Shown one piece after another: positions 2,063 to 58,424 of a DNA stretch of 64,000 nt. Location: contig NZ_LR881183.1 in NCBI RefSeq assembly GCF_904067545.1, forward strand, positions 934,277 through 998,276, in the 5' to 3' direction. A program made the translations under genes and the position numbers. The notes beneath the pieces were generated by a model. The model saw only the letters and a list, made by a program, of their open reading frames with translations. It searched no databases and was not told where the DNA came from. This DNA comes from Thermococcus camini (GTDB lineage Archaea > Methanobacteriota_B > Thermococci > Thermococcales > Thermococcaceae). Position 1 is the first letter of the stretch; every line of letters starts with the position of its first letter.

Positions 2063-2524
2063 TAGAAACTTTTCTGGCGAAAAGTTTCATCAAAGTTCGT
2101 AGCTCCTTCTCGAAGTACAAGTTCCTGAGGGTTTCTTAATAATTAAAAGCATTGTTTTGAGTGAGAACCTATCCAAAGATTCAGCGTAAAGGTTTTAGTC
2201 ATGGAAAAAAACGCCCGTAGGCGTTAAAAGAAAGTAAACCCATTTCAATGGATTTTTTAAAGTGTTCTCCGCTTAAAAACTTTGCAGTTGGAGCATAAAA
2301 TCTCACTCGCATGGCGTTCTTTGCGAGGAGCTACAAACTTTTGGTGAAGCTTTTCCAAAACTCGGATACACGCCCAGGGGGCATTAGTGTGAGGGCTCAG
2401 ACTATCCTGTGATAGTTGTACACCGGATTTGGATATTCAGGTTGCATTTTAAGGGCCGAAACTTTCTTATAGTTCTCTGTAACAACACATGTGGACTTCC
2501 TTAAATTGGTTGGGGGGTCTTCAC
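2063..2524. other. AT-rich gene-free stretch with several small inverted repeats
   Basis: No convincing coding region is seen in these 462 bases. They contain the hairpin at 2065-2088, an AACGCC/GGCGTT hairpin at 2210-2225, fragments resembling the AAACTTTGC repeat near 2273 and AAACTTTTGGTG near 2338, and an ACTATC/GATAGT inverted repeat at 2401-2416. A TATA-like TTCTTATAG near 2464-2472 is well placed for transcription of the gene starting at 2525. The stretch is richer in A and T than its neighbours and may mark acquired or decayed DNA. Confidence 0.6.
2065..2088. repeat. perfect hairpin repeat directly after tRNA-Val
   Basis: Arms GAAACTTTTC and GAAAAGTTTC pair perfectly around the loop TGGC, starting three bases after the tRNA CCA. 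The layout, an AAACTTT-type arm with a four-base TGGY/ACCA loop, closely resembles the element at 50712-50733. This suggests a dispersed small palindromic family, although it could also work as the tRNA 3' processing or termination structure. Confidence 0.7.
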
Positions 2525-4258
2525 ATGTCCAAGAAAGATCTCCATTACCTTATTACACGAATCATCAACCCATACTTGAATTGGATTGTTGCTTCTTTGC
2601 GTTCTAGCAATCGCGTCTTATATGGTCGTGATGGTTATACCCGCATCCACTGGATGGATCATACTTTAAGCGACACGTTTGCCTCAGAGCTTGAAGAGTG
2701 GAGAAATAATCTCTGGTATAGCTATCGAGAGAATTTTCTTGAGCGTGGTACCGAGATTCTAGATTCTCTTCTTGAAATTATGATCCGGATTGAAGCTAAA
2801 CTTCCTGACAGCGACAGCAAGGGTAGGGTAATATCCAATCTGTGGGAGATGGCCGAGAAAGTAGAGGCTTATCTCGGACTCAAGGGCTATGTAGAGTCAA
2901 AGAAAGAGTACTTCAGCAACAAGGTAGTTGAAATTAGGAGGCGAGATGAGGAACTCAGACAAAAACTGGAAGAACAGAAGAAAAAAGAGGATATTGGTGT
3001 TAAAGTGAACAAAAGGTCAATCAGGAAGTCCATTTCTGAGCCAGAAAGAAAAATTTACCCTGCCACTAATAAAAGAACCTTTCCCGCAACATCCTCACAA
3101 GAAAAGCCTAAGAAAAAGCGAAAATGGAAACGCCCTTGGAAAAAGTTCTTTGGATTCATATTGGTGTTTTTGGTATTAGTTACCCTCTACGATCTTAGTC
3201 ATACTAATGGGCAACTTGTGCGACAGGCTATTCCTGACGATATTGAGGCTAAGATTTTGGGGTTTTGGGACACAGCAAAGAACTCCACTGAAGAAGTGCC
3301 CTCCGTAAAGTCGCTGGCATCCACTGCAGTTGCGTGCTCTAATGTGGATTATTCGTTGGAGGCTGCGTTGGAATGTTACCTCAACGATCCGAATGAGTTT
3401 CAAGCCTTAGAACCTCTGGCATTTCAACTAAAGAGCTCGACTCTGCAGGAGAGCGCGTGGAATATCTTGGAGTGGGAGGATCAACACATTCAATACGATT
3501 GGGCAAAATACCGTGGTTTGAGGTCAACTAAGATACAGAAGCCTTCTGAGACTATTCAGCGTGGCTCGGGGGTTTGCGTGGATTACGCTGTCCTGACTGC
3601 AGGTCTGCTCTTGGCAATGAACTATTCTCCGGTATACGTATTTGAAATTGACTTCTCAAACGATCCGATGGGACATGCAACTACTGCGATAAAAATTAAT
3701 GGGCAGTTCTTTATGATAGACCAGCACCCCCCAATAATGGATTTGGGGACGTATTGGAAGTATTGGGCCTATTGGCGCAGCGAGTACTCTGACAGAACAT
3801 TGAGGAATTTGATAATATCCTCTGCAAAGGTCTATGAGGCGAGATTGGAGTCTGGAAAAGTTGTTGTTGACTACGTAGGAACTCTGACTGGTGAGGAATT
3901 CAAGAAATACGATTATACTTTCTCAGGGGCTGATTTAACAAGGCTTATCTCAGATTTAAGGGCAAAGTTCATCAGAAAGTTCCCAAACTTGCAATTGGAC
4001 TCAAAGATTTCTAACCTTGATATTGCTACGTCTTTGCCGTATGGTTACTCTGATGGAGTTACATGGAAAACTACGTTTCCAGATTTCACAGAGCACTACA
4101 CTCCTCTATTCCACGACGAGTTCGTTGATTACATCTATTCCCAGATAATCGACAGCAAGGAGATTGTTTCTGACTTGAGAACCTACAACAGGTTTTGGGT
4201 TAAAGGGCAGGTAGAGGGGGGTAATATGAAGGTAATCCTATGCTTAGCCAAAAAGTAG
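2525..4258 (+). CDS. membrane protein with extracellular transglutaminase-like domain
   Basis: A 577-residue protein of unknown role. The N-terminal 200 residues are charged and helical with a coiled-coil stretch (RRRDEELRQKLEEQKKK). They end in a very basic run (KPKKKRKWKRPWKK) and one membrane helix at about 206-225. The part after the helix, presumably outside the cell, carries a transglutaminase-like triad: C351 in SGVCVDYA, H384 in MGHATTA and D399 in FMIDQHP. Such domains act as cysteine proteases, transamidases or inactive folds. ATG 2525 is chosen because GGGGGGT precedes it and the TATA box near 2464 would start transcription close to the alternative ATG at 2489. AT-rich codon use and the position beside tRNA-Val suggest transfer. 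Confidence 0.65.
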   Translation: MSKKDLHYLITRIINPYLNWIVASLRSSNRVLYGRDGYTRIHWMDHTLSDTFASELEEWRNNLWYSYRENFLERGTEILDSLLEIMIRIEAKLPDSDSKGRVISNLWEMAEKVEAYLGLKGYVESKKEYFSNKVVEIRRRDEELRQKLEEQKKKEDIGVKVNKRSIRKSISEPERKIYPATNKRTFPATSSQEKPKKKRKWKRPWKKFFGFILVFLVLVTLYDLSHTNGQLVRQAIPDDIEAKILGFWDTAKNSTEEVPSVKSLASTAVACSNVDYSLEAALECYLNDPNEFQALEPLAFQLKSSTLQESAWNILEWEDQHIQYDWAKYRGLRSTKIQKPSETIQRGSGVCVDYAVLTAGLLLAMNYSPVYVFEIDFSNDPMGHATTAIKINGQFFMIDQHPPIMDLGTYWKYWAYWRSEYSDRTLRNLIISSAKVYEARLESGKVVVDYVGTLTGEEFKKYDYTFSGADLTRLISDLRAKFIRKFPNLQLDSKISNLDIATSLPYGYSDGVTWKTTFPDFTEHYTPLFHDEFVDYIYSQIIDSKEIVSDLRTYNRFWVKGQVEGGNMKVILCLAKK

Positions 4259-4294
4259 CGGGGGTACAACCGTTCCATTTTGTTCTCTGTTTTA

Positions 4295-5440
4295 TCATGT
4301 CGCCCTCTTATCCTCCTCCGGGAACTTCCAGTTTCTGGTTATTTTCGTCACGTTTCTCACGAGGGCCTTCTCCTCCGGGTGCCTTGAGACGAGCTCCTCA
4401 AGAAATGAGATGAGCTCGTCGTAGGCCGGCTTGTCTATCGGGAAAGGCACTCTATCTTTCCCCCCGACGGCGTAGGTGAACTTGAAGGGGTCGGGTGGAT
4501 GCGTTACGGGGTCTTTCCAGCTCGGGTGGACGTCGTAGACCAGCTCAAGGACGAGCGAAAGAGCGCGTAAAGTGCTCGGGCCGAGGCCCTTCAACAGCAA
4601 AAACTCCTCGTAGTTGCTCACACTAAGCTCGCGGGCAAACTCTAATGCCCTCTTGTTCAGCTCAAATCTTCCCATACTTTCGTAGCGCCTTAGGATGGAA
4701 ACCTCATTGACGTTGCGGGGCTTGTAGTAAACGAGCGGGCGGTAGCCTTTTGCGAGCGCTTTCAGACTCTCAAGCTCGCGCTCTATTTTAACCGGATTCT
4801 CTTGAACCACGTTGAGGAGCGTTTTCTGGTATTCTTTGGCTTCCTTTGAGACGGTGTTGAGGGCGAACTCTCTCCTGAGCCCGGAGATGGCCTTGTGGGG
4901 GTCGAGGGTGAAGGTCTCAGCGTCAAACCAGTGGAAGCGCCTCGCCATCCTCTCCCTCTCGTTCATGCCCTGCTGTATCACCGCCCAGTTACCCTCTTCA
5001 TCGAGAAGGAAGACGTGGTGGTAGAGCCCGTAGCCGGTCTGGAGCGCAACCGTGTCGACTTTGGCCACTAGCCTGGATGTCCTCACATAAGGCTCGGGGT
5101 CGAGGTCGTAGAGTTCCGCTATCCTCTTCAGCTCATCTGGTGTGGCGCGGCTCTTCTTCCCCTTGCCCCCAGCGGCTTTAACCCCAAGCTCCTCCCTCCA
5201 GAGGGCGTCCTTTATCATGCCCGCCGTTACGGTTGTCGAGCCAGAGGAGTCCCAGTCCATCCCGATGACGTTGTTGAAGGCCTGGAACCAGACCGGGTCA
5301 GATAGCCTCTCAAGGAGGCCCTTCGTTCCGTACTCCTCAACCGCTAAAATTAACACTAACCTTGTGAGCTTTCTCATCCTCTGCGCCAGCCACGCTGGGA
5401 CGCGGCCGCCGTGGAGGGGCAGATGGGCTACGTTCCTCAT
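4295..5440 (-). CDS. DUF763 family protein with helix-hairpin-helix
   Basis: About 381 residues from the ATG at 5440; function unknown. The N-terminus MRNVAHLPLHGGRVPAWL is the hallmark start of the DUF763 (COG1415) family. Near the C-terminus LLLKGLGPSTLRALSLVLEL reads as a helix-hairpin-helix, a fold usually used for sequence-independent DNA binding, so a nucleic-acid role is plausible. The frame stays open to an ATG at 5521, which would add 27 residues. A TATA-like ATTTATATG at about 5535-5543 would begin transcription downstream of 5521, which favours the internal ATG, but the start remains open. The gene is divergent from the serine kinase gene. Confidence 0.75.
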   Translation of the reverse strand: MRNVAHLPLHGGRVPAWLAQRMRKLTRLVLILAVEEYGTKGLLERLSDPVWFQAFNNVIGMDWDSSGSTTVTAGMIKDALWREELGVKAAGGKGKKSRATPDELKRIAELYDLDPEPYVRTSRLVAKVDTVALQTGYGLYHHVFLLDEEGNWAVIQQGMNERERMARRFHWFDAETFTLDPHKAISGLRREFALNTVSKEAKEYQKTLLNVVQENPVKIERELESLKALAKGYRPLVYYKPRNVNEVSILRRYESMGRFELNKRALEFARELSVSNYEEFLLLKGLGPSTLRALSLVLELVYDVHPSWKDPVTHPPDPFKFTYAVGGKDRVPFPIDKPAYDELISFLEELVSRHPEEKALVRNVTKITRNWKFPEEDKRAT

Positions 5441-15124: not shown

Positions 15125-18100
15125 TCATTCCTTCTTCGTCCTGTGCAGAGGCCACCAGGCCTTTTCTCCAAAGAGTGCCATCGTGGCCGGACCAATGAAG
15201 TAAACCGCCGCCGTGGCAGTCAAGAGCACTCCGATGGCCAGTGCGAAGCCTATCTCCCTTATTCCCCAAGTCGCTCCCGTCATCAGCGAGCCGTAGGTTA
15301 CCGCCAGCACGGCGGCGAGGCCGACGACGAGGGTGTCCATCGTTCCGGCAGCGACCACCAGGGCGTCCCTCGCGCTCCTGCGCTCGAACTCGTCCCTGGC
15401 TTTGACCAGGTAGAAGCTGTTGTAGTCTATGCCGACTCCCATGAGCACTATGAAGACCATCATGGGCAGGAACCACATAACCTGCTGGCCGAAGACCCTC
15501 TCGAAGAGCCAGCTGGAGACGGTTATGCTGAGGAGCACGCCGACCGCTATGGTGCCTATGGTGGTTATAACCGCCGGCAGTCCCTTGAGGGTCGGTATCA
15601 GCGAGAGGAACATCAGCAGGAGCGCCACCGGGAAGATTCTGTGCCAGAAGACGTCGTTGATGAGGTCGCTGAGGTCAAGGGCCAAAGCTGTGTTCCCTCC
15701 GACCATTCCTGACTTTATTGCTCCCGATTTCTCCTCGTCTTTCACTATCGCCCTTATCTCCCTCACCATGTCCTTGGAGCGGTCGTCGGTTGCTTCGTAC
15801 TTCCCGGTAACCTGAATCAGCACCTTGGTGCCGTCTTCCGAGATGTAGCGGTCACCGCCGATGCTCTTCAGCTCCTCCACGCTGACGTTTATGGGCCTCC
15901 CGTAGGGCCGGGTCACGGTGTAGACGTACTCGACGCCCTCCACCTTTGAAATCCTTCCCGCGAGCGCCTCGATGGCCTTGAGGTCGTCATCGCTCAGCGG
16001 GTGGCCCAGGTCTATGACCACGTAGGTCGGGGAGGTAACGCCCGCACCAACCGTGCTCTCGCTGAGCCGGAGGAAGTTGTAGGTCTCGCTGTCCTTGGGG
16101 ATGAACAGCTTTATGTCGTGGGTACCGTTGAAGTTGACGAAGTTATACGCGGCTGGAACCGCCACTAGGAGCGCTATGAGGACAACCACTTTAGCGTGCT
16201 TGACGGCCCACTCCGCGATTCTGCTCCTCTCGTGGATGTCCACACTCTCGATGTGGTGCTCGATGTGCCTCGGCCACCAGAAGGCCGGTTTTTCGCCTAT
16301 GAGAACGGTTATCGCAGGGATGAACGTCAGGCTGGCAAGGAGGACTACGATGACTGCCAGGGGTGCTATCATGCCGATGGTCTTGAATATCGGGAACTCC
16401 CAGGCAAGGATAAAGCTCGCGAAGGCTATGATGTCGGTCGATGCACTCGCTAAGACCGCGTCCTTTGCCCTCTTCAGCGCCTCGCTTGCAGCTTTGTCGT
16501 GGTCGTAGCCTTCCGCCAGGTACTCCTTAAAGCGGTGGAGGTAGTAGGTGGAGTAGTCTATCCCCAGCCCGAGAGCCGTCGTGACGGTGAGCATCTGGGC
16601 CCAGCTCCCGACGTCCAGGTAGTCACCCTTCGCGAGCAGGTAGAGTATTCCCAGCGCGGTGAGCGTTGCAGTCGCGACGCCAGTGAAAGGCAGGAGCGTT
16701 GCAAGTAACGCCACGCCCATGAGGACGAGGAGAACCAGGAGCGCCCCAGCTATGCTGAACTTCGTAGTCTTGTCGTTGTCCTCCTTGCCGTATTTAATGG
16801 CCTCGTAGGTCTGAATAGGCGTTCCGGTTACGTATACCTCGACTTTCGGCGAGACCGCTCTGAACTCTTTCAGAGCGACCTCCTTGACCTTCAACGAGCT
16901 CTCGTACTGTGCTTTGCTCTGCTTCTCCAGGTCACTTACACCCTTGAGGCCCTTTGGAACAAATAGAATCAGCATCGTCCTGTTGTCCGGGCTCTTGAGC
17001 ATCCCGATGTAGCTCTTTGCGAGGCTGTAAATGGACGGGTAGACCTGCTCCTCTATTGGTTTGACCCCTTCCTTCGTTATCCTATCCGGGTCGTCCCTGA
17101 ATTCGAAGGCGATGTTCACAAGCTCGATGGCGTTTATGTGGAGCGGAACTCCGAGGTTAATCTCCCCTACGAACTTCTCGACAAGCTTCACCGTTTTCTC
17201 CTTGACGAGGGTCCCAATTTGGGACTTGCTCATCGGGTAGTTCTTGGCAACGGTGAGCATTATCTCCTTCAGCGTCTCCTTGACGTCCTCCGGGGCGGTA
17301 ACGTTGGCGAGTTTTTCGTTAACCCCTTCCTCGAAGAGTTCGTAGGCTATCTCCTCAGGACTCTTGCCGGCGTAAACATCGTCCACAGCTTTGCCGAGGT
17401 CTATCGGGACGTCTCCAGCCAGGCTCGTGATTATCTCCTTGACGGTCTCTTTAACGCCAACTCCCCTGGCAAGCTCCTCCGGGTTCTTGAGGACGGTATC
17501 GACGATGGTTTCGGCAACCTTCTCGCTCCCAACCTTCTCGGCGGTCTTCTGAATTAGTATCTCCCTCGCTATCGGCGTGACGTTCCCGTTGGAGTCGTAG
17601 ACTCCGCCAATAACGCTCTCCGGGAGCTCAACGCCTTTTTCCTTAACCAGCTGGGCGAGCAGTGAGACGGTGGCCTTCTTCAGCACCTCAGGGTTCTTCG
17701 CCAGAACGCCGGTGGCGTTCGAGTCAAAGTTTACAACGGTCTTGACTATTGGCTCTGCTAAATCCTTCTGCTCCTCTGGAAGCTTCTCTTTGAGCACTCC
17801 GGTGAGCAGGCTCTCCTCAAGTCCCCTCGTCGGGCCGTAAACGAGGAGCGTCCTCAGTACCCCATCCGCGTTCGGCATCTCGAGGAGCGGGCTTCCTGCC
17901 ATGAGTGCCTTTGCGACCTCAACGGTCGCGTTCTCGACGGCCAAAGCGTTGGGATTCCTTCCAAGGCTTATCGAGGCGTTGAGGATGTAAGCTAAAGTCT
18001 CCGCCGGAACCTCACCGAAACCCGGAACCTCGTAGCTTCCCCCAGTCCCTTCGACGACGAGCGGGAGGTTTTTGAGGGCGTTGCTTGCTATCCCATCAAC

Positions 18101-19177
18101 GGGCCTAACCGCATTCTCGCCGAGCTGGATTAGGGCGTAGTTGCTTCCCTCTTTCTGGTCGAACACAATGACGCCCTGGTAGAATGCAACGGAATATGCC
18201 TCGGCGAGGTTCCTCTGCATCGGGTCGCTGATCTGACCGAGAACCATCACCCTGGTGACGTTGGCCAGGAAGCCGTCGGTTATTGCCCCTGAACCATATG
18301 CGGAGTAGGCCGGGTAGGTGGAGTTGTAAACCGCGTAAACGAACTCGACGGGAACGCCGAGCTTTTCAGCTATCGCCTGCGCCGTTCTCTCGTCAAGGCT
18401 CCTCTCGTAGGCTCCAGCCTGAACGAGGGCATCGTAGGCTCCTATCGTTCCGAGGTAAGTTCTCGCGTAGCTATCGCTCAGGTTGTAGAGGCCCACGTTA
18501 AGGCCTGCTATCGTGGAGTTCAGCGTTTTCAACTGTTCGCTGGCCTGGGTGAGGTTTTCGTGAAGCTCAACGTAGGCCAAATCCGTCTGGTTGAGCGCTT
18601 GCCGGAGGGTGAGACTCTGGTTGTAGAGAACGCTCAGGTTGGCCTCGAGCGCGAAGTAGGCCCCGGCAAGCTCGGGGACGGTCTCGTTGAGTGTCTTGAC
18701 CTGCTCGCTGAGGTTCTCAATCTGAGAAAGAAGGGTTCCATAAGTGCTGCTGGCGTTGATTGCCGAGTCGTAGAAGATTCCGGTTAGGTTAGCTGTAGTT
18801 CTGGTGAGGTTGAGCGCTATCTCATAGGACTTGTTGTGGAGCATGTCAACGGCATCGTAGTAGGAGGTGAAATTCGAACCGTAGGGCCTTGCCTCGGCCT
18901 TGAAGCGTTTATAGGCTTCTTTCGTTGCCGGGTCGTTGATATCAACGCCGCTCACTATCATGTAAGTCTGGTTGGTGCTCGTTGAGAACTCCTGGAACTC
19001 CTTTGCCAGGGTATCCTGCACCTTAACCGATTCCACGTCCTTGGGCAGGAACTGGTCCATGCTGTAGTTGGTAACGCTGTTGAGCTTCATCGCCAGGGGC
19101 ATCGCGGCTATGACGGCTATTATCCACAGGGCCACGATGGCCTTTGCGTGCTTCACTATCCACTCGTTCCAGGCCAT
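15125..19177 (-). CDS. MMPL/RND-superfamily exporter
   Basis: A giant 1350-residue membrane protein. One membrane helix at the start (AKAIVALWIIAVIAAMPLA) is followed by an unusually long extracellular domain of roughly 700 residues. This is rich in NLT/NLS glycosylation sites and predicted coiled coil. Two bundles of membrane helices carry the MMPL pattern GLGIDYSTYYLHRFKEYLA and GVGIDYNSFYLVKARDE. Such proton-driven proteins export lipids or hydrophobic drugs. ATG 19177 follows GGTGGTGGGT. The gene is divergent from a PadR repressor gene with an inverted-repeat operator between them, the usual layout for PadR control of an exporter. Confidence 0.85.
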   Translation of the reverse strand: MAWNEWIVKHAKAIVALWIIAVIAAMPLAMKLNSVTNYSMDQFLPKDVESVKVQDTLAKEFQEFSTSTNQTYMIVSGVDINDPATKEAYKRFKAEARPYGSNFTSYYDAVDMLHNKSYEIALNLTRTTANLTGIFYDSAINASSTYGTLLSQIENLSEQVKTLNETVPELAGAYFALEANLSVLYNQSLTLRQALNQTDLAYVELHENLTQASEQLKTLNSTIAGLNVGLYNLSDSYARTYLGTIGAYDALVQAGAYERSLDERTAQAIAEKLGVPVEFVYAVYNSTYPAYSAYGSGAITDGFLANVTRVMVLGQISDPMQRNLAEAYSVAFYQGVIVFDQKEGSNYALIQLGENAVRPVDGIASNALKNLPLVVEGTGGSYEVPGFGEVPAETLAYILNASISLGRNPNALAVENATVEVAKALMAGSPLLEMPNADGVLRTLLVYGPTRGLEESLLTGVLKEKLPEEQKDLAEPIVKTVVNFDSNATGVLAKNPEVLKKATVSLLAQLVKEKGVELPESVIGGVYDSNGNVTPIAREILIQKTAEKVGSEKVAETIVDTVLKNPEELARGVGVKETVKEIITSLAGDVPIDLGKAVDDVYAGKSPEEIAYELFEEGVNEKLANVTAPEDVKETLKEIMLTVAKNYPMSKSQIGTLVKEKTVKLVEKFVGEINLGVPLHINAIELVNIAFEFRDDPDRITKEGVKPIEEQVYPSIYSLAKSYIGMLKSPDNRTMLILFVPKGLKGVSDLEKQSKAQYESSLKVKEVALKEFRAVSPKVEVYVTGTPIQTYEAIKYGKEDNDKTTKFSIAGALLVLLVLMGVALLATLLPFTGVATATLTALGILYLLAKGDYLDVGSWAQMLTVTTALGLGIDYSTYYLHRFKEYLAEGYDHDKAASEALKRAKDAVLASASTDIIAFASFILAWEFPIFKTIGMIAPLAVIVVLLASLTFIPAITVLIGEKPAFWWPRHIEHHIESVDIHERSRIAEWAVKHAKVVVLIALLVAVPAAYNFVNFNGTHDIKLFIPKDSETYNFLRLSESTVGAGVTSPTYVVIDLGHPLSDDDLKAIEALAGRISKVEGVEYVYTVTRPYGRPINVSVEELKSIGGDRYISEDGTKVLIQVTGKYEATDDRSKDMVREIRAIVKDEEKSGAIKSGMVGGNTALALDLSDLINDVFWHRIFPVALLLMFLSLIPTLKGLPAVITTIGTIAVGVLLSITVSSWLFERVFGQQVMWFLPMMVFIVLMGVGIDYNSFYLVKARDEFERRSARDALVVAAGTMDTLVVGLAAVLAVTYGSLMTGATWGIREIGFALAIGVLLTATAAVYFIGPATMALFGEKAWWPLHRTKKE

Positions 19178-19216
19178 ACCCACCACCATTGTCGCTCATC
19201 AACATGATGTGTTTTA

Positions 19217-19237
19217 ACATGTCAAAGTTCGACATGT
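19217..19237. promoter_or_regulatory. ACATGTC-N7-GACATGT operator between MMPL exporter and padR
   Basis: A perfect inverted repeat with 7-base arms and 7-base spacer AAAGTTC. It lies just downstream of the shared TATA-like ATTTATAAG (19251-19258) as read toward the exporter gene, where binding would block transcription. The identical arms and spacing recur at 56339-56359 before oleate hydratase. Confidence 0.7.
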
Positions 19238-19281: not shown

Positions 19282-19294
19282 ATAGGTGGTCACC

Positions 19295-19780
19295 ATGGAG
19301 AACGCCGAGCGAAGAATAATCAAGGGACTTTTTACGGTGCCCCTGAAGAACCTCATACTCGTCATAGTGGGCTTGAAGGGAGAAGCTCATGGCTATGAGA
19401 TACTGAAGGAGCTTGAAAAGCTCGCTATCGGCCTCTGGAAGCCCAGCCACAGCAACCTCTACACCATCCTGAGCAAGATGGTTGAGGAGGGACTTTTGGA
19501 GCCGAGGGAGGAGTATCGTGGAAAAGTCAGACGGGTTAAGTACAGCCTCACCGAGAAGGGATGGGATTACCTCAGAACCTCGAACGATCTCGCCCTCAGG
19601 GTGCTGTATACCTCAATCAACTACCACGAGGCCCTGAAGAGAAAGCTTGAGGAGATGGAACTTAAGAGGCCGATGGACAGGGAGACCGTCAAGACATACC
19701 TGGAGCTCCTTAAGAGGATACGCGACATACTGGACGAGGAAATAAAAACTATAGAGGCCGAACTTTCCGCGGAGAATTGA
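19295..19780 (+). CDS. PadR-family transcriptional regulator
   Basis: 161 residues. A winged helix-turn-helix of PadR type occupies the N-terminal 100 residues: KGEAHGYEILKELE, then SHSNLYTILSKMVEEGLLEP and the wing (RVKYSLTEKGWDYL). The C-terminal helical dimerisation region is KRKLEEMELKRPMDRETVKTYLELLKRI. PadR proteins repress exporter genes until a hydrophobic or phenolic ligand binds. Divergence from the MMPL exporter with a shared operator supports that role here. ATG 19295 follows GGTGGTCACC. Its possible second target is oleate hydratase, from the matching operator there. Confidence 0.85.
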   Translation: MENAERRIIKGLFTVPLKNLILVIVGLKGEAHGYEILKELEKLAIGLWKPSHSNLYTILSKMVEEGLLEPREEYRGKVRRVKYSLTEKGWDYLRTSNDLALRVLYTSINYHEALKRKLEEMELKRPMDRETVKTYLELLKRIRDILDEEIKTIEAELSAEN

Positions 19781-19926: not shown

Positions 19927-20337
19927 ATGGAGGATCTCAGAGTTCAGCTCGAGGAGCTGAAGAAGAGGCTGGAGGTGCTGGAGGAGAGCATTGACCCCGT
20001 TGATGAGGTCATGCTCTCGATAAAGGCCCGCCTGAGGAGAAAGCTCGAAGGTGGAAGTTTGCCAGAGATAGACGAGGAGAGAGCTGCGAGAACCCTCAAG
20101 GCCCTCGCCAACCCGGACAGGATAAGGATCCTGAAGATGCTTTCCGAGGGACCGATGGGCTTCAAGGAAATAAAGGATGCCCTTGGGGTGGAAAGCCCCA
20201 CGGTTTCCCACCACCTGAAGCTCCTGGTGAAAACCCGGATGGTGAGAAAGGGGGAAAGATACGAAATATCGCCCGATGGACGTCTCTTTTTGCGCTTGCT
20301 TGAGATAATAACTGCCCTCGAGGAGGTGGAAGAATGA
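19927..20337 (+). CDS. ArsR-type winged-helix regulator
   Basis: 136 residues. An N-terminal coiled coil (residues 1-40, LEELKKRLEVLEESI) precedes an ArsR-like winged helix: LKALANPDRIRILKMLSEGP, then VESPTVSHHLKLLVKTRMV as the recognition helix. No metal-binding cysteines are present, so this is probably not a metal sensor; it may respond to a protein or membrane signal. Its last four bases overlap the start of the next membrane protein gene, so the regulator is co-translated with it. This regulator plus membrane protein plus DUF4097 layout recurs in cell-envelope stress loci. Confidence 0.8.
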   Translation: MEDLRVQLEELKKRLEVLEESIDPVDEVMLSIKARLRRKLEGGSLPEIDEERAARTLKALANPDRIRILKMLSEGPMGFKEIKDALGVESPTVSHHLKLLVKTRMVRKGERYEISPDGRLFLRLLEIITALEEVEE

Positions 20338-21632
20338 GTTTTAGCTGGAAGTACCATGCCCATCGCGAAGGCCCAAGGTTTAAGCTGGCGGAGTACCTCA
20401 AAGCCCTCACGGCGATACTGCTCATTGCATGGCTGTTCAAGGGGCCGCTGAGGCTTGAGGCATACAACGATCAGCTGGTGTACGCGATAGTGGCGCTCCT
20501 GTTCGCCTTCGAGCTGCTGAGCGTCGGCAAATGGTTCGGAGTAACGATAAGCGGAATAGTCTTTGCTTTGGCTAAAGGCTTCTTCTGGACGAGCGTTTTC
20601 CTGTTCTTCGGGGGGTGGCTGGGAATGTCCGAAACACTCCACAATTACGCGGGAACGGCCTTCGCTTATTCAGTCGTCCTCGTCATAGCGGGAATTCTGC
20701 TGGCTAAGTTCGATGAGAGAAAATTTGACATCAAAGTTGAAGGTAAGGCCTACGAGTTCAGCGGGGCAGACTTCGGCGAGGTGAAGCTCAGGGGGACTGG
20801 CAAGGCCTATCCCGTGAAGTTTGGAAGGAAGAACGTTGCCTGGGTGATAGATGGAAGCGTTGAAGTCGAGGCGGAGACACCGCTCGGGAGGATAACGAAA
20901 AGGCTCCTCAGCCCGGTCATCGTGTGGACTGAGGAGAGGATAGCCGGGCGGAAAACTTCCGCGGATCCCGGCTTTGTCTCAAGGGTGAACGACCTCGTGA
21001 ACCCTGAGGGGCTTTACAAGAAGGGCAAGAGGGAGGGCGTGGTTGACCTCGGCTTCATCAAGGTCTACGAGGGCGAAGGCTTTGAGTACGTGAAACTGCC
21101 CTTCATCGAGGTCATAGAGACGCCGGGCGGTGAGGAGGTCAAGATAGGTCCAATGAGGTTCCGCGAGGGCAACCCTGAGATGCCCCCGGCTGAGATGCTG
21201 ACCATCCGAGAACTCCATAACGGCTTCCAGCTGACCAGGGTCGGCGAGAGGCTGAAGGTCCAGACCGACGAGTACTCCATCGAGGTCGACGGTGAGAGGG
21301 TAACCTACAGGAGCGGAAACGAGAGCCTCAGCCTTGGTGAGACTGTCTCGCTCCGTTCTGGAGATATCTCGGTCAGCGTTGGCAGGGGAAGGGCCAAGAT
21401 ACGCATAGAGGACGTCGTCATTTCCGCCAGAGAGGGCAAAGTCAGGATAAGGGCCGGAGGAAGGACTTACACGGTGGAAGACCCCGAGGCATACAGGCTC
21501 GTCATGGAGAAGGCGAAGGAGATAGTGGAGGAGCAGAGCGCCGAGCTGATAGAGGGCCTTGGCATAGACAGAACCCTGCTCAACAGGCGCGTGAAGGAGC
21601 TTCTCGACGAGCTGATGGGCTATATCGGGTGA
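20334..21632 (+). CDS. membrane protein with large beta-rich C-terminal domain
   Basis: 432 residues of unknown function. The first 130 residues hold about four membrane helices (LKALTAILLIAWLF, LVYAIVALLFAFELL, TISGIVFALAKGFFWTSVFLFFG, AYSVVLVIAGILLA). The remainder is soluble, predicted beta-rich, with repeated acidic/basic strands such as VDGERVTYRSGNESLSLGE and a helical end. The ATG overlaps the stop of the ArsR gene. With the DUF4097 protein downstream, it may form a membrane-associated sensor or scaffold under ArsR control; that is inference. No paralog is seen in the window. Confidence 0.65.
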   Translation: MSFSWKYHAHREGPRFKLAEYLKALTAILLIAWLFKGPLRLEAYNDQLVYAIVALLFAFELLSVGKWFGVTISGIVFALAKGFFWTSVFLFFGGWLGMSETLHNYAGTAFAYSVVLVIAGILLAKFDERKFDIKVEGKAYEFSGADFGEVKLRGTGKAYPVKFGRKNVAWVIDGSVEVEAETPLGRITKRLLSPVIVWTEERIAGRKTSADPGFVSRVNDLVNPEGLYKKGKREGVVDLGFIKVYEGEGFEYVKLPFIEVIETPGGEEVKIGPMRFREGNPEMPPAEMLTIRELHNGFQLTRVGERLKVQTDEYSIEVDGERVTYRSGNESLSLGETVSLRSGDISVSVGRGRAKIRIEDVVISAREGKVRIRAGGRTYTVEDPEAYRLVMEKAKEIVEEQSAELIEGLGIDRTLLNRRVKELLDELMGYIG

Positions 21633-54601: not shown

Positions 54602-55585
54602 ATGACAACAGAAACCGACGAAAAGCCGAGGATAACAGTCCTCGCGTACTCACGGGACAAGTTTCTCAGCAGAAAGGCGGAAAGCATCGAGAAGGCCCTC
54701 TCCATAAGCGGCTATGATGTTGTGTGGGTGAACGTGGATACAGTCTCCCTCGTGCTCGAACTGAGGGATGCACTGGGGATCCACGAAACGCCGATGAAGA
54801 CCCTGGGGCGGGCGAACGGCAGGGCAAGGGTGATGGTGTTCCCGGACTACCTCTTTCTCCTTCTCCACCAGGTCTATGAGATAGATGGTGGACTGAAGAG
54901 GGAGAGGATGGGCATCCTCCTGAAGGGCAACCTCGTGATAACAATCCAGGAGACCCCTGGGGACGTTTTCGACCCGATACGGGAAGGCATCCGCAGGGGG
55001 GAGGGACTCCTCCGCGAACACGGTGCCGATTTTCTGCTCTTCGCAATTCTTGAGGCGATAGTTGAAAACTACGTACCGATAATCGAGCGCATAAGCTCCC
55101 AGATGGAAGAGCTCGAGGCGCGGATACTTTCGAGGGTGGACGAGGGCATCCTTCACAGGATACACGGAATACGGCGGGAGATACTCTTCATGCGCCGCAC
55201 GATATTCCCCCTCCTGGAGGCGTTCAGGAAGCTGAGGCTTGAGGGAGGGGATTTCTTCAGCGAGGACACCAAGCCCTTCATAGACGAACTCCACGACCAC
55301 GTCCTTGAGGTTCTCGAAATCCTCGAAGGGCAACGGGAGCTCGCCAACAGCCTCGTCGAGCTTTACTACTCGACCATCTCGATGAAGACAAACGACATCA
55401 TTAGAATCCTCACGGTCGTCTCGACGATATTCATCCCCCTAACCTTCATAACCGGCCTCTACGGAATGAACTTCCGATACATGCCGGAACTTTACTGGCG
55501 GTATGGCTATCCCTTCGTTCTCCTGCTGATGCTCTCTATCGCGGTTGGAATGCTCATGTACTTCAGGAAGAAGAGGTGGATTTAG
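54602..55585 (+). CDS. corA: CorA-type magnesium/metal transporter
   Basis: 327 residues. The long cytoplasmic domain ends in charged helices, followed by two membrane helices. The signature YGMNF lies at the end of the first ([19 protein letters not shown]), and the second is [18 protein letters not shown] with a basic tail KKRWI. The pentameric channel imports Mg2+ or Co2+/Ni2+ and is gated by bound Mg2+. ATG 54602 follows GAGGTGGGAAC. The gene-free leader region upstream contains a large inverted repeat, possibly regulatory. Confidence 0.92.
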
Positions 55586-56277
55586 GAGTCGAGCCCGAGG
55601 GCGAGTTTCAGGGCCTTCTCGGCTATCACGTCGAGAGGATCTACCAGCGGAATTTTCAAATCCTCCGGTCTCAGGGCAACGCTGACCTCCGTGCAGCCGG
55701 CTATTATTCCATCAACCCTGCGCTCGAGCCTTTTGGCCACCTCCAAAAGGAGCCTTCTTCCCAGCTCAAGGTTCCCGGCCTTCACACCTTCGTAGATTCC
55801 CTTCATGACGAGCTCCTGGTCTCTTCTGCCCGGCACAGCGATTTGAACGCCGTGGGATAGAAGGGCCCTGTGATACACGAGGCCCTTGATGGTACCATCT
55901 GTGGCGAGGAGACCCACCTTTCTCAGCCCCATTCCTCGAACCAATTTTGCTGTTTCCTCGATCATACTGACGAGCGGAATCTTTACCGCTTTCTGGATCG
56001 TCTCGGCGAAGAAGTGGGCGGTGTTGCAGGGCATTATTATGAAGTCCGCACCCCAGCTTTCGAGCTTCTTAGCGCTCTCAATGAGCTCGGGCCTTGGGTC
56101 TTCTCCGTTCCCAAGGATGAACGCGGTCCTGTCGGGTATCTTCGGATTGTTGTAGATGATTACCCTTGGATGCTCCTGGTCGCGCTTTGCCGGTGTCTTC
56201 TCCACTATTCTCCTGAAGAGCTCGGCAGTAGCTAAAGGCCCCATCCCGCCGAGGATTCCGATGGTTTTCTCAGTCAT
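55582..56277 (-). CDS. aspartate/glutamate racemase family protein
   Basis: 231 residues. Both catalytic cysteines are in place: [13 protein letters not shown] and [12 protein letters not shown]. The N-terminus [21 protein letters not shown] is typical of aspartate racemase (PLP-independent). It interconverts L- and D-aspartate. D-amino acids occur in hyperthermophilic archaea, though their use is unclear. It ends within the corA stop (four-base overlap) and starts divergent from the oleate hydratase gene across 95 bases. Confidence 0.88.
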
Positions 56278-56337
56278 TCACTCACCACTAACCTTTATTG
56301 AGAAATATTTTTAAATTTGGCCACTATGACTATATCA

Positions 56338-56360
56338 AACATGTCTTTATAAGACATGTT
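56338..56360. promoter_or_regulatory. ACATGTC-N7-GACATGT operator before oleate hydratase
   Basis: A perfect inverted repeat with 10-base arms around TAT, ending 12 bases before ATG 56373. The inner part, ACATGTC, 7 bases, GACATGT at 56339-56359, has the same arms and spacing as the padR/MMPL operator at 19217-19237. The spacer itself (TTTATAA) is TATA-like. Confidence 0.7.
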
Positions 56361-56372
56361 GGGGTGAGGAAT

Positions 56373-58043
56373 ATGTTGAACTACAGGAGGACGACTCCAA
56401 GGAAAATCCCGGACATTAAGGAAAGGAAGGCATACTTCGTTGGAGGCGGGATAGCCTCTCTTGCCGGAGCCGTTTTCCTCATAAGGGACGCCAAGATGCC
56501 CGGGAAGAACATATACATCATTGAGAAAACTCCGGTCAACGGCGGCTGTCTCGATGGTTCCGGAACCCCGGAGAACGGCTACCTGCTCAGAGGGGGAAGG
56601 ATGTTCGAGGAGCATTATGAGGCCACATGGGACCTTCTCGGCTCGATACCCTCACTCGACGACCCAGAGAAGACGATACTCGACGAGGTTGTGGAGTTCA
56701 ATAAGGAGTACGTTGGCTCATCAAAGTGCCGCCTCGTTGGAACGCCGGGCAAAAAGGTGGACTTCTCGAAGTACGGCTTAACCGTGAGGCACCTCAACGA
56801 GATGAACGAACTTATCTTAACTCCGGAGGAAAAGCTCGCAGGAATAACGATAGAGCAGTGGTTCTCGAAGGACTTCTTTGAAACGAACTTCTGGTACTTC
56901 TGGGCAACGATGTTCGCCTTCCAGCCCTGGCACAGCGTTGCCGAGATGAGGCGGTACATGCTGCGCTTCATGCACCTCGTTCCGGGCATGAACAGGATAG
57001 AAGGCGTTAAGAGAACCCCATACAACCAGTACGACTCGATAATCCTGCCCATCCAGAAGTGGCTCCAAGAGCGGGGCGTCAACTTCATAATGGGGACGAC
57101 GGTTGTCGATGTGGAAATCGAGGAGAGGGACGGCACAAAATATGTCACCAAGCTCCACCTCAAGGGCCAGCATGGCGGGACAATCGAAGTTAACCCGAAG
57201 GACCTCGTCTTCATAACACTGGGTTCGATGGTGGACAACTCAACCTATGGGGACTTTAACCATCCACCGGTTCTCAACAGGGGCGAGGGCGACAGCTGGA
57301 GGCTCTGGAGAAAGCTGGTTGAAAAGGATCCTGCCTTAGGGAACCCCGATGCCTTTGCCTCGGACATAGACAAGACCAAGTGGGAATCCTTCACGATAAC
57401 CTTCAGGGGAGATAGGTTCCTTAAAATGCTCGAGGAGTTCACGGGCAACAGGACAGGAACTGGCGGACTGGTCACCTTCAAAGACTCCTCCTGGCTGATG
57501 TCAATAGTAGCATTCAGACAGCCCCACTTCAGGAACCAGCCTGATGACGTGACCGTTCTCTGGGGCTACGGGCTCTTCGTAGATAAGCCCGGCGACTACA
57601 TCAAGAAGCCGATGAGCCAGGCAACTGGAAAAGAGATATTCCTTGAGCTCCTCTACCACCTCGGCTGGCTTGACAGGAAGGACGAGCTCCTTGAGACCGT
57701 CATAAACGTGAGAACCGCCATGATGCCCTACATAACCGCCCACTTCATGCCGAGGAAGCCAGGCGACAGGCCTCCGGTTGTTCCCGAAAACTACGGAAAC
57801 TTAGCTCTGCTCGGCCAGTACGTCGAGATACCTGGGGAGTGCGTCTTCACCGTCGAGTATTCCGTCAAGTCTGCAATGATAGGCGTCTACACCCTCCTCG
57901 ATCTCGGGAGGGAGGCTCCACCTGCGTACACACCATATCAGGAGATTCCAGTCCTGCTGAAGGCGGCCGAAACGCTTGTCGATGACGACAAAAAAGAGCT
58001 CCTGAAGTACAGTTTATCTTTGTTTCTCTCTGGGAAGCTCTGA
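56373..58043 (+). CDS. ohyA: oleate hydratase (FAD-dependent)
   Basis: 556 residues. The enzyme adds water to the 9,10 double bond of oleate and related unsaturated fatty acids. The FAD motif KAYFVGGGIASLAGAVFLIRDA, then IYIIEKTPVNGGCLDGSG and GYLLRGGRMFEEHYEATWDLL are hallmarks of the OhyA family. Later regions match as well (NFWYFWATMFAFQPWHSVAEM, GQYVEIPGECVFTVEYSVKSA). It is a rare protein in archaea, whose membranes lack fatty acids, so transfer is likely. GGGGTGAGG lies just before ATG 56373. The operator suggests it belongs to a membrane-active compound response. Confidence 0.9.
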   Translation: MLNYRRTTPRKIPDIKERKAYFVGGGIASLAGAVFLIRDAKMPGKNIYIIEKTPVNGGCLDGSGTPENGYLLRGGRMFEEHYEATWDLLGSIPSLDDPEKTILDEVVEFNKEYVGSSKCRLVGTPGKKVDFSKYGLTVRHLNEMNELILTPEEKLAGITIEQWFSKDFFETNFWYFWATMFAFQPWHSVAEMRRYMLRFMHLVPGMNRIEGVKRTPYNQYDSIILPIQKWLQERGVNFIMGTTVVDVEIEERDGTKYVTKLHLKGQHGGTIEVNPKDLVFITLGSMVDNSTYGDFNHPPVLNRGEGDSWRLWRKLVEKDPALGNPDAFASDIDKTKWESFTITFRGDRFLKMLEEFTGNRTGTGGLVTFKDSSWLMSIVAFRQPHFRNQPDDVTVLWGYGLFVDKPGDYIKKPMSQATGKEIFLELLYHLGWLDRKDELLETVINVRTAMMPYITAHFMPRKPGDRPPVVPENYGNLALLGQYVEIPGECVFTVEYSVKSAMIGVYTLLDLGREAPPAYTPYQEIPVLLKAAETLVDDDKKELLKYSLSLFLSGKL

Positions 58044-58079: not shown

Positions 58080-58424
58080 TCACTCCTCCAGCCAGACTGA
58101 GTCATCGCCGTAGTAGTTCAGCTTGACCACGAAGAGCCTGAACGGCTCATCCCGCTCGTTGATTACCCAGTGCACGATCTTTGGCTTGACAAGGAAGATG
58201 TCCCCGGGCTTTGCGATGTATTCTCTCTCGCCGATGCCAAGTTTAGCTTCGCCACTCATTATGTAGAACAGCTCGTACTGGTGTTTGTGGTAGTGCTTCT
58301 TAACCGTCTGCCCCGGCTTGACCTCGACTATCTGGGCGTAAGAGCCTTCGGGCAGTTCTCCCTCGAAGAGCGGGAGCTTTCTGTAAGTGCCCCTGTCGAT
58401 GAAGTTTTTGATTTCGGCCTTCAT
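58080..58424 (-). CDS. cupin-domain protein
   Basis: 114 residues, one beta-barrel. Cupin motif 1 is PGQTVKKHYHKHQYELFYIMSGEAKLGIG (His-x-His and Glu metal ligands), motif 2 is PGDIFLVKPKIVHWVIN. The metal site looks complete, so an enzyme (isomerase or oxygenase) or sugar-binding role is possible. It ends 36 bases from the oleate hydratase stop on the opposite strand. It is transcribed in the same direction as the small membrane protein cluster upstream, 35 bases away, and may be their last gene. Confidence 0.82.
   Translation of the reverse strand: MKAEIKNFIDRGTYRKLPLFEGELPEGSYAQIVEVKPGQTVKKHYHKHQYELFYIMSGEAKLGIGEREYIAKPGDIFLVKPKIVHWVINERDEPFRLFVVKLNYYGDDSVWLEE

Follow-up and report, generated by a model that had tools for sequence, protein, structure and literature searches.

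Why does an archaeon carry a complete gene for an oleate hydratase when archaeal membrane lipids contain no fatty acids, and how is such a gene controlled? The gene considered here, ohyA, lies in a 64,000 nt stretch of Thermococcus camini DNA (termed the window), which is part of a genome of 2.02 Mb in a single contig.

56373–58043, + strand: ohyA, oleate hydratase, 556 aa (family HMMs, PDB matches, predicted model, median dN/dS 0.067)

The open reading frame has an ATG start and a TGA stop, and a ribosome-binding motif, GGTGAGG, is found 3 nt ahead of the ATG. The translated sequence matches over its full length the Pfam MCRA family PF06100 (E = 4.6e-206; 685.9 bits, cut-off 23) and the NCBIfam model NF010584 "oleate hydratase" (732.8 bits, cut-off 567). 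A PDB search gives end-to-end matches to solved OhyA structures with E-values of 2e-146 to 2e-98. The AlphaFold model, built from a 25-sequence alignment, has a mean pLDDT of 92, and a Foldseek search with it places 29 OhyA chains on top at TMq 0.76–0.95 (28 of the 29 listed are at 0.86–0.95). The first folds other than OhyA appear at TMq 0.58, the nearest being phytoene desaturase. The dN/dS ratio among the 12 Thermococcus orthologs does not exceed 0.11 in the 60 of 66 pairs that gave a value, the other six being saturated; judged by this codon comparison, Thermococcus ohyA is under purifying selection.

The preliminary description of the locus had pointed to a complete OhyA in an archaeon. 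The reading frame, the family HMMs and the PDB matches bear out its completeness. Its novelty does not stand: archaeal sequences are mentioned in a review (PMC8403116), and in a class-level sample of haloarchaea around Natrinema 36 of 292 genomes exceed the PF06100 cut-off, 35 with full-length matches (the remaining one, G245, exceeds it by joined fragments only). OhyA, and archaeal OhyA, is thus already known. The new part is an operator that is common to the promoter of ohyA and to the divergent promoter of a PadR-type regulator gene (padR) and an MMPL exporter gene (mmpL).

Active-site positions were numbered by way of the chain offsets of 4uir, with EmOhy as reference. The dinucleotide-binding region starts with GGGIAS at residues 24–29. 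The catalytic Tyr241 of EmOhy corresponds to Y195 and is conserved in all 103 aligned rows. The position of the water-activating Glu (E122 in EmOhy, E82 in SaOhy) is occupied by M77. The carboxylate-end residues T436, N438 and H442, which are variable across the family, correspond to V379, F381 and H385, so that one of the three is kept. F381 is found in all 12 Thermococcus rows, in their sister sequence and in 1 of 76 other rows; V379 and residues other than Asn at position 381 are also present in bacterial and haloarchaeal relatives.

About 30% of HyED sequences are reported to have Met at the Glu position, and the Met-type enzyme of R. erythropolis (ReOhy) is described there as active, its activity being reduced by a Glu substitution (PMC8403116, in part). 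Rhodococcus HFam1 enzymes display RGGRML with Val/Ala (PMC7306040, in part). Met is thus usual in much of the family. By its residues Thermococcus OhyA is a Met-type enzyme whose Phe at the carboxylate end is unusual, and it is likely to be an active hydratase. The V379/F381 pair was not found among the characterised enzymes in the available sections of the cited literature. According to the review, no archaeal OhyA had been successfully expressed by its date (PMC8403116).

In the Thermococcaceae, 12 of 94 genomes exceed the PF06100 cut-off (12 of 115 in the phylum), and all 12 belong to one genus. A genome scan gave at least 575 relatives among at least 596 pattern matches; the best 80 relatives were kept. 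In a 103-row tree all 12 Thermococcus sequences group together (support 100), nested within bacterial sequences. The sister of this group, 73% identical (support 100), is a contig of a thermophilic "Dictyoglomota bacterium" MAG (L106). From their translations its neighbours are a divergent LysR-type gene and a downstream gene for an ABC-type protein, which is by appearance a bacterial setting. One of nine Dictyoglomota genomes has an OhyA gene over the cut-off, and L106 may therefore be misbinned. Haloarchaeal OhyA sequences form a separate group (support 100) and Methanoregula is found elsewhere; these separate groups indicate that archaea probably acquired OhyA several times. The true donor of the Thermococcus gene may be missing from the sample of relatives, which is biased to near ones. 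A wide vertical presence in archaea, raised in the preliminary description along with the comparison to bacterial OhyA, was not found, and vertical archaeal inheritance was rejected on the restriction to one genus of the phylum and on the separate archaeal clades. A contig of a viral collection (L185, positions 3001–4638) also encodes an OhyA, 42% identical, that groups with the Lactobacillus enzyme on long branches.

55582–56277, − strand: amino-acid racemase, bordering the ohyA insertion site on the left (TIGR00035, 354 bits, cut-off 93.1)
58080–58424, − strand: small cupin-like protein, bordering the same site on the right (weak cupin-type matches, all below cut-off; named by resemblance)

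In the window ohyA is located between these two genes. The cupin gene is present in 55 genomes of the genus, and 30 of its loci were examined: six have ohyA beside the cupin gene and 24 (G047 among them) do not. The racemase and cupin genes are separated by 4–21 nt in 22 of these 24. In G070 (L215, C1) the gap is about 606 nt and contains two small frames resembling a toxin-antitoxin pair, which would make the gap a small insertion hotspot. In G068 (L213, C6) the racemase match sets in late, which looks like a frameshifted start. Judged by at least one neighbour, 11 of the 12 copies of ohyA occupy this place, with only the cupin side found in G054 and G064. The ohyA-bearing genomes are scattered in the racemase and cupin trees (9 and 10 changes, weak support), so that two histories, a single gain with later losses or recombination spreading the gene at this site, are inseparable. 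Elsewhere in the window, positions 2489–4258 have a low GC content (43%, compared with about 55%) and carry a 589-aa frame whose C-terminal part resembles, by eye, transglutaminase-like domains.

56338–56360, no strand: operator, a perfect inverted repeat (10-bp arms, 3-nt spacer); core CATGTC-N7-GACATG at 56340–56358 (searches, ortholog alignment)
56307–56317, + strand: TATA-box-like element of ohyA, TATTTTTAAAT (T-rich/TAA alignment in 12 orthologs)
56325–56328, + strand: third half-site, a weaker TATG, 15 bp ahead of the operator start (promoter alignment)

The palindrome, AACATGTCTT-TAT-AAGACATGTT, ends 12 nt ahead of the ohyA ATG. A perfect palindromic operator had been named in the preliminary description, and it is confirmed as well above chance: 0.07 perfect 10-bp inverted repeats with a 3-nt spacer are expected per 64 kb. 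The full palindrome has a single match in the window at up to three mismatches (none in 100 shuffles) and is found at one place in the whole genome. In all 12 Thermococcus ohyA promoters the distance from the first base of the core to the start codon is exactly 33 nt; the core is exact in ten and has one mismatch in two. A core with up to two mismatches was found in none of 86 ohyA upstream regions from outside Thermococcus (two further rows were too short). In the 12 aligned promoters a TTTTTAA-like box (T-rich/TAA) precedes the core by 25–31 nt, which puts the expected transcription start of ohyA under the core; the TATA-box-like element presumably acts as the ohyA promoter. The TG of the third half-site is present in 12 of 12 ohyA promoters, and among 28 padR promoters most have a CATG-like half-site with identical spacing.

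19218–19236, no strand: second exact operator copy, CATGTCAAAGTTCGACATG, in the padR-mmpL divergent promoter (conserved with up to two mismatches in 28 of 30 padR loci)
19286–19780, + strand: PadR-type regulator, 164 aa from GTG 19286, with ATG 19295 the likelier start (PF03551)
15125–19189, − strand: MMPL/RND-type exporter, 1354 aa, divergent from padR (PF03176, PDB relatives)

The exact core occurs twice in the genome, where 0.11 copies are expected, and the second copy is about 37 kb from ohyA, between padR and the exporter gene. The regulator matches PF03551 with 57.8 bits (cut-off 27); its predicted model is poor (pLDDT 59). The promoter of padR itself displays ATGT-N9-ACAT at 19219, which fits the spacer range of the published PadR box, an ATGT-N8-10-ACAT inverted repeat (PMC3506622, PMC5050560, both in part). 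PF1476, a PadR protein in the TrmBL1 paper, has no assigned function there. The exporter matches PF03176 with 223.4 bits (cut-off 20.5), and its PDB relatives are MmpL5, MmpL4 and MmpL3, including named siderophore and trehalose-lipid exporters. Assignment to the HAE3 subfamily (TIGR00921) was rejected, the score of 147.1 bits being under the threshold of 351.9. After padR, positions 19927–21632 of the window encode an ArsR-type HTH protein and then a 432-aa protein with no Pfam match.

A paralogous pair is seen in G020 (L186, C1:757127–761807), where a padR paralog (58% identical) adjoins an MMPL paralog (53%). The intergenic stretch there has related but different half-sites, TATGTC and AACATA, and padR-mmpL pairs may therefore have diverged together with their operators. 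The padR locus proper of G020 (L095, upstream of C1:1861153–1861629) has no adjoining exporter match and an operator with two mismatches; this locus hints that pump loss and operator decay may go together.

Across the 94 family genomes there are 33 exact cores in 25 genomes, and the reversed pattern is found in two genomes. The 33 sites comprise 22 at padR-mmpL, 10 at ohyA and one, in another genus, at neither. One locus was read in each of the 25 genomes (22 padR-mmpL, 2 ohyA, 1 neither) and the eight second sites were assigned to ohyA by coordinate and promoter alignment; on this basis 32 of the 33 exact sites are in two promoter classes. The padR orthologs (at least 70% identity, one partial match included) number 35, and the promoters of 30 loci were examined. 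Of the cores found, 19 are exact, eight have one mismatch and one has two. The two loci that lack the core are those of G014, which has no exporter match, and G047. In G047 (L097, C25) padR follows ohyA immediately, both on one strand; the padR promoter itself is without the core and the ohyA core is retained with one mismatch. No exporter match was found in this genome, which is 99% complete. In G047 the regulator and ohyA have thus remained together without the pump, and the padR-mmpL-ohyA trio is not fixed. The ohyA-padR pair of G047 adjoins suf-like genes (by eye) and is not at the usual racemase-cupin place.

Orthologs of padR are present in 35 of 61 genomes of the genus, in 10 of 12 with ohyA and 25 of 49 without it (Fisher p = 0.04, kinship ignored). 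Among genomes at least 90% complete the counts are 10 of 10 and 23 of 40 (p = 0.009, kinship ignored); that is, 23 near-complete genomes have padR and lack ohyA. The two genomes with ohyA and no detected padR ortholog, G048 and G064, are 82% and 75% complete. Outside Thermococcus, one weak MMPL match (L118) is seen near ohyA in 88 loci, and a general association of ohyA with MMPL genes was discarded on that count. A wider regulon was likewise not accepted: a search of the genome at two mismatches gave 67 forward matches compared with 58 for the reversed control, and only exact copies of the core are therefore trusted. Of three one-mismatch sites (L028, L031, L034), two are inside long open frames and the third falls at, or inside, the beginning of a small frame.

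These counts bear on the possibility that ohyA is a passenger in an insertion-prone gap and that the operator match is coincidental or serves an unrelated regulator. The patchy presence of the gene and the toxin-antitoxin-like frames in the same gap of G070 would fit such an origin. A passenger is not expected, however, to be intact in 12 orthologs with so low a dN/dS, to keep an identical operator spacing in every one of them, or to share nearly all exact operator sites of the family with a single other promoter class, and we regard this explanation as very improbable.

That ohyA shares its operator with a nearby putative pump for hydrophobic compounds points to a defence, switched on when needed, against soap-like fatty acids. 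We consider it moderately probable that a PadR repressor jointly controls an amphiphile exporter and the acquired ohyA, as the archaeal counterpart of the tetR-farE-ohyA response of lactobacilli. The mechanism that we infer extends to PadR binding, the direction of control, the inducer, the substrate and the protective purpose. A bacterial-type fatty-acid hydratase would have been acquired horizontally by a subset of Thermococcus and put under a pre-existing PadR-type repressor that also controls padR itself and the divergent exporter gene. In the resting state a PadR dimer would occupy CATGTC-N7-GACATG at the predicted transcription start of ohyA and in the padR-mmpL promoter. Its release would be triggered by an amphiphile, of which the likeliest is a free long-chain unsaturated fatty acid coming from bacteria nearby or from decaying biomass. 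The exporter would then clear the amphiphile from the ether-lipid membrane, and OhyA would hydrate the cis double bond to give a hydroxy acid, which would be less membrane-active. The preliminary description had proposed a defence against fatty acids from neighbours. That proposal gains strong, if indirect, support from the palindrome common to the PadR/MMPL promoter and kept with ohyA in every ortholog; a protective purpose is presumed.

The farE gene belongs to COG2409, which is presumably of MMPL type. In lactobacilli oleate, linoleate and palmitoleate co-induce ohyA, farE and tetR (PMC11429459, in part), and by this analogy an unsaturated fatty acid would be the stimulus in Thermococcus as well. 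Oleate resistance of L. gasseri required farE, not ohyA9 (same source), so that "detoxification" may misname the hydratase step. Such acids also elicit a response from FarR and the divergently encoded FarE pump of S. aureus, where palmitoleate is inactivated by OhyA (PMC12098983, in part). Methane production by methanogenic archaea was halved at 0.5 mM oleate and was zero above 2 mM (PMC4919993, in part), which suggests, by analogy, that a membrane without fatty acids confers no immunity.

A single PadR regulon could also have another hydrophobic compound as its trigger or substrate (a terpenoid, a phenolic, an antibiotic or a petroleum-type amphiphile) and so be a general amphiphile or drug response. 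LmrR, of the PadR family, binds multiple drugs and represses a drug exporter (PMC5428041, in part), the PDB relatives of the exporter are named for siderophores and trehalose lipids, and V379/F381 could widen the carboxylate end of OhyA. Against this, fatty acids are the substrates of the OhyAs characterised in the available parts of the cited literature, and the predicted fold is that of a full-length OhyA, with the drop in TMq to the next folds setting it apart from a general FAD oxidoreductase. We take this alternative to be unlikely.

The substrate could alternatively be the cell's own unsaturated isoprenoids (geranylgeranyl lipid precursors or polyprenols), with the MMPL protein moving lipids, in a regulon for membrane remodelling. 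PadR would sense free unsaturated lipids and call up a lipid exporter together with a re-tuned hydratase (Met77, Val379, Phe381) hydrating isoprenoid double bonds. Lipid exporters exist, by name, among MMPL-family proteins; F381 is found in Thermococcus and its sister where EmOhy has Asn; and phytoene desaturase is the nearest fold of the predicted model outside OhyA. The altered substrate-end residues are the one piece of positive evidence for the isoprenoid substrate proposed at the outset, and most of them, V379 and the loss of Asn at 381, also occur in bacterial and haloarchaeal relatives. Genomes of the Thermococcaceae share the same core lipids, yet 82 of 94 lack ohyA, and the tree indicates that the gene was horizontally acquired. 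Both the remodelling regulon and the re-tuned hydratase within it therefore seem to us decidedly improbable. If true, hydroxylated archaeal lipids would be made, or free prenyl chains destroyed, under stress.

Searches of the open-licence literature found, by title or start of abstract, no paper on an archaeal fatty-acid response or a PadR-OhyA link; none on Thermococcus with "myosin-cross-reactive antigen" or on fatty acids near hydrothermal Thermococcus; and, by title, nothing on this gene under oleate hydratase and Thermococcus. A paper on cadmium in T. gammatolerans was found to contain nothing bearing on the ohyA regulon. With the PadR-MMPL-ohyA set it becomes testable whether an ether-lipid archaeon detects and counters the soap-like fatty acids of the bacteria around it. 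Three predictions follow: two Thermococcus promoters that respond to an inducer, a transferred gene whose regulatory rewiring can be mapped onto a tree, and a supply of oleate hydratases that are both Met-type and heat-stable.

The Met-type bacterial oleate hydratases (PF06100, EC 4.2.1.53) correspond to HFam1 and HFam3 of HyED and to the Bacillales "clade II" (PMC7306040, PMC11669549, both in part). Thermococcus OhyA is like them in predicted fold, RGGRM loop, V at the T436 position and catalytic Tyr. Identity with sampled members is about 46–53%, the 73% MAG sequence being the one exception. The Thermococcus enzyme differs by F at the N438 position and by its archaeal promoter with a PadR-type operator. 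Its RGGRM and V resemble HyED HFam1 (at least 62% identity within the family), a likeness of pattern alone. The haloarchaeal OhyAs (Natrinema, Natribaculum, Haloferax, Haloarcula) are archaeal and Met-type as well, but form a separate clade, without such an operator and with different neighbours where read.

Thermococcus PadR has only weak similarity to chains of the PadR family, among them 3f8b (E = 3e-4), which we take to be LmrR. LmrR/LmrCD of Lactococcus has in common with the proposed Thermococcus system a PadR-type, self-regulated repressor of an exporter (in Lactococcus a multidrug exporter) and an ATGT/ACAT inverted-repeat box; it differs in having an ABC exporter and no hydratase. In Lactobacillus tetR-farE-ohyA9 (PMC11429459, in part) a fatty-acid efflux pump gene neighbouring the regulator gene and a hydratase gene are induced together. 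There the regulator is of the TetR family, the membranes are of ester lipids and induction is demonstrated, whereas in Thermococcus the regulator is a PadR and induction is presumed. In S. aureus, which also has OhyA, a regulator is again divergent from an RND/MMPL fatty-acid pump; FarR is of the TetR family, the lipids are ester lipids, and no operator shared with ohyA is stated in the available part of the source (PMC12098983). FarE-like exporters and the Thermococcus exporter have in common the MMPL family and the divergent-regulator layout only. The parts list in Thermococcus, a repressor, an MMPL pump and a hydratase, would thus be the same as in bacteria, with a different regulator family.
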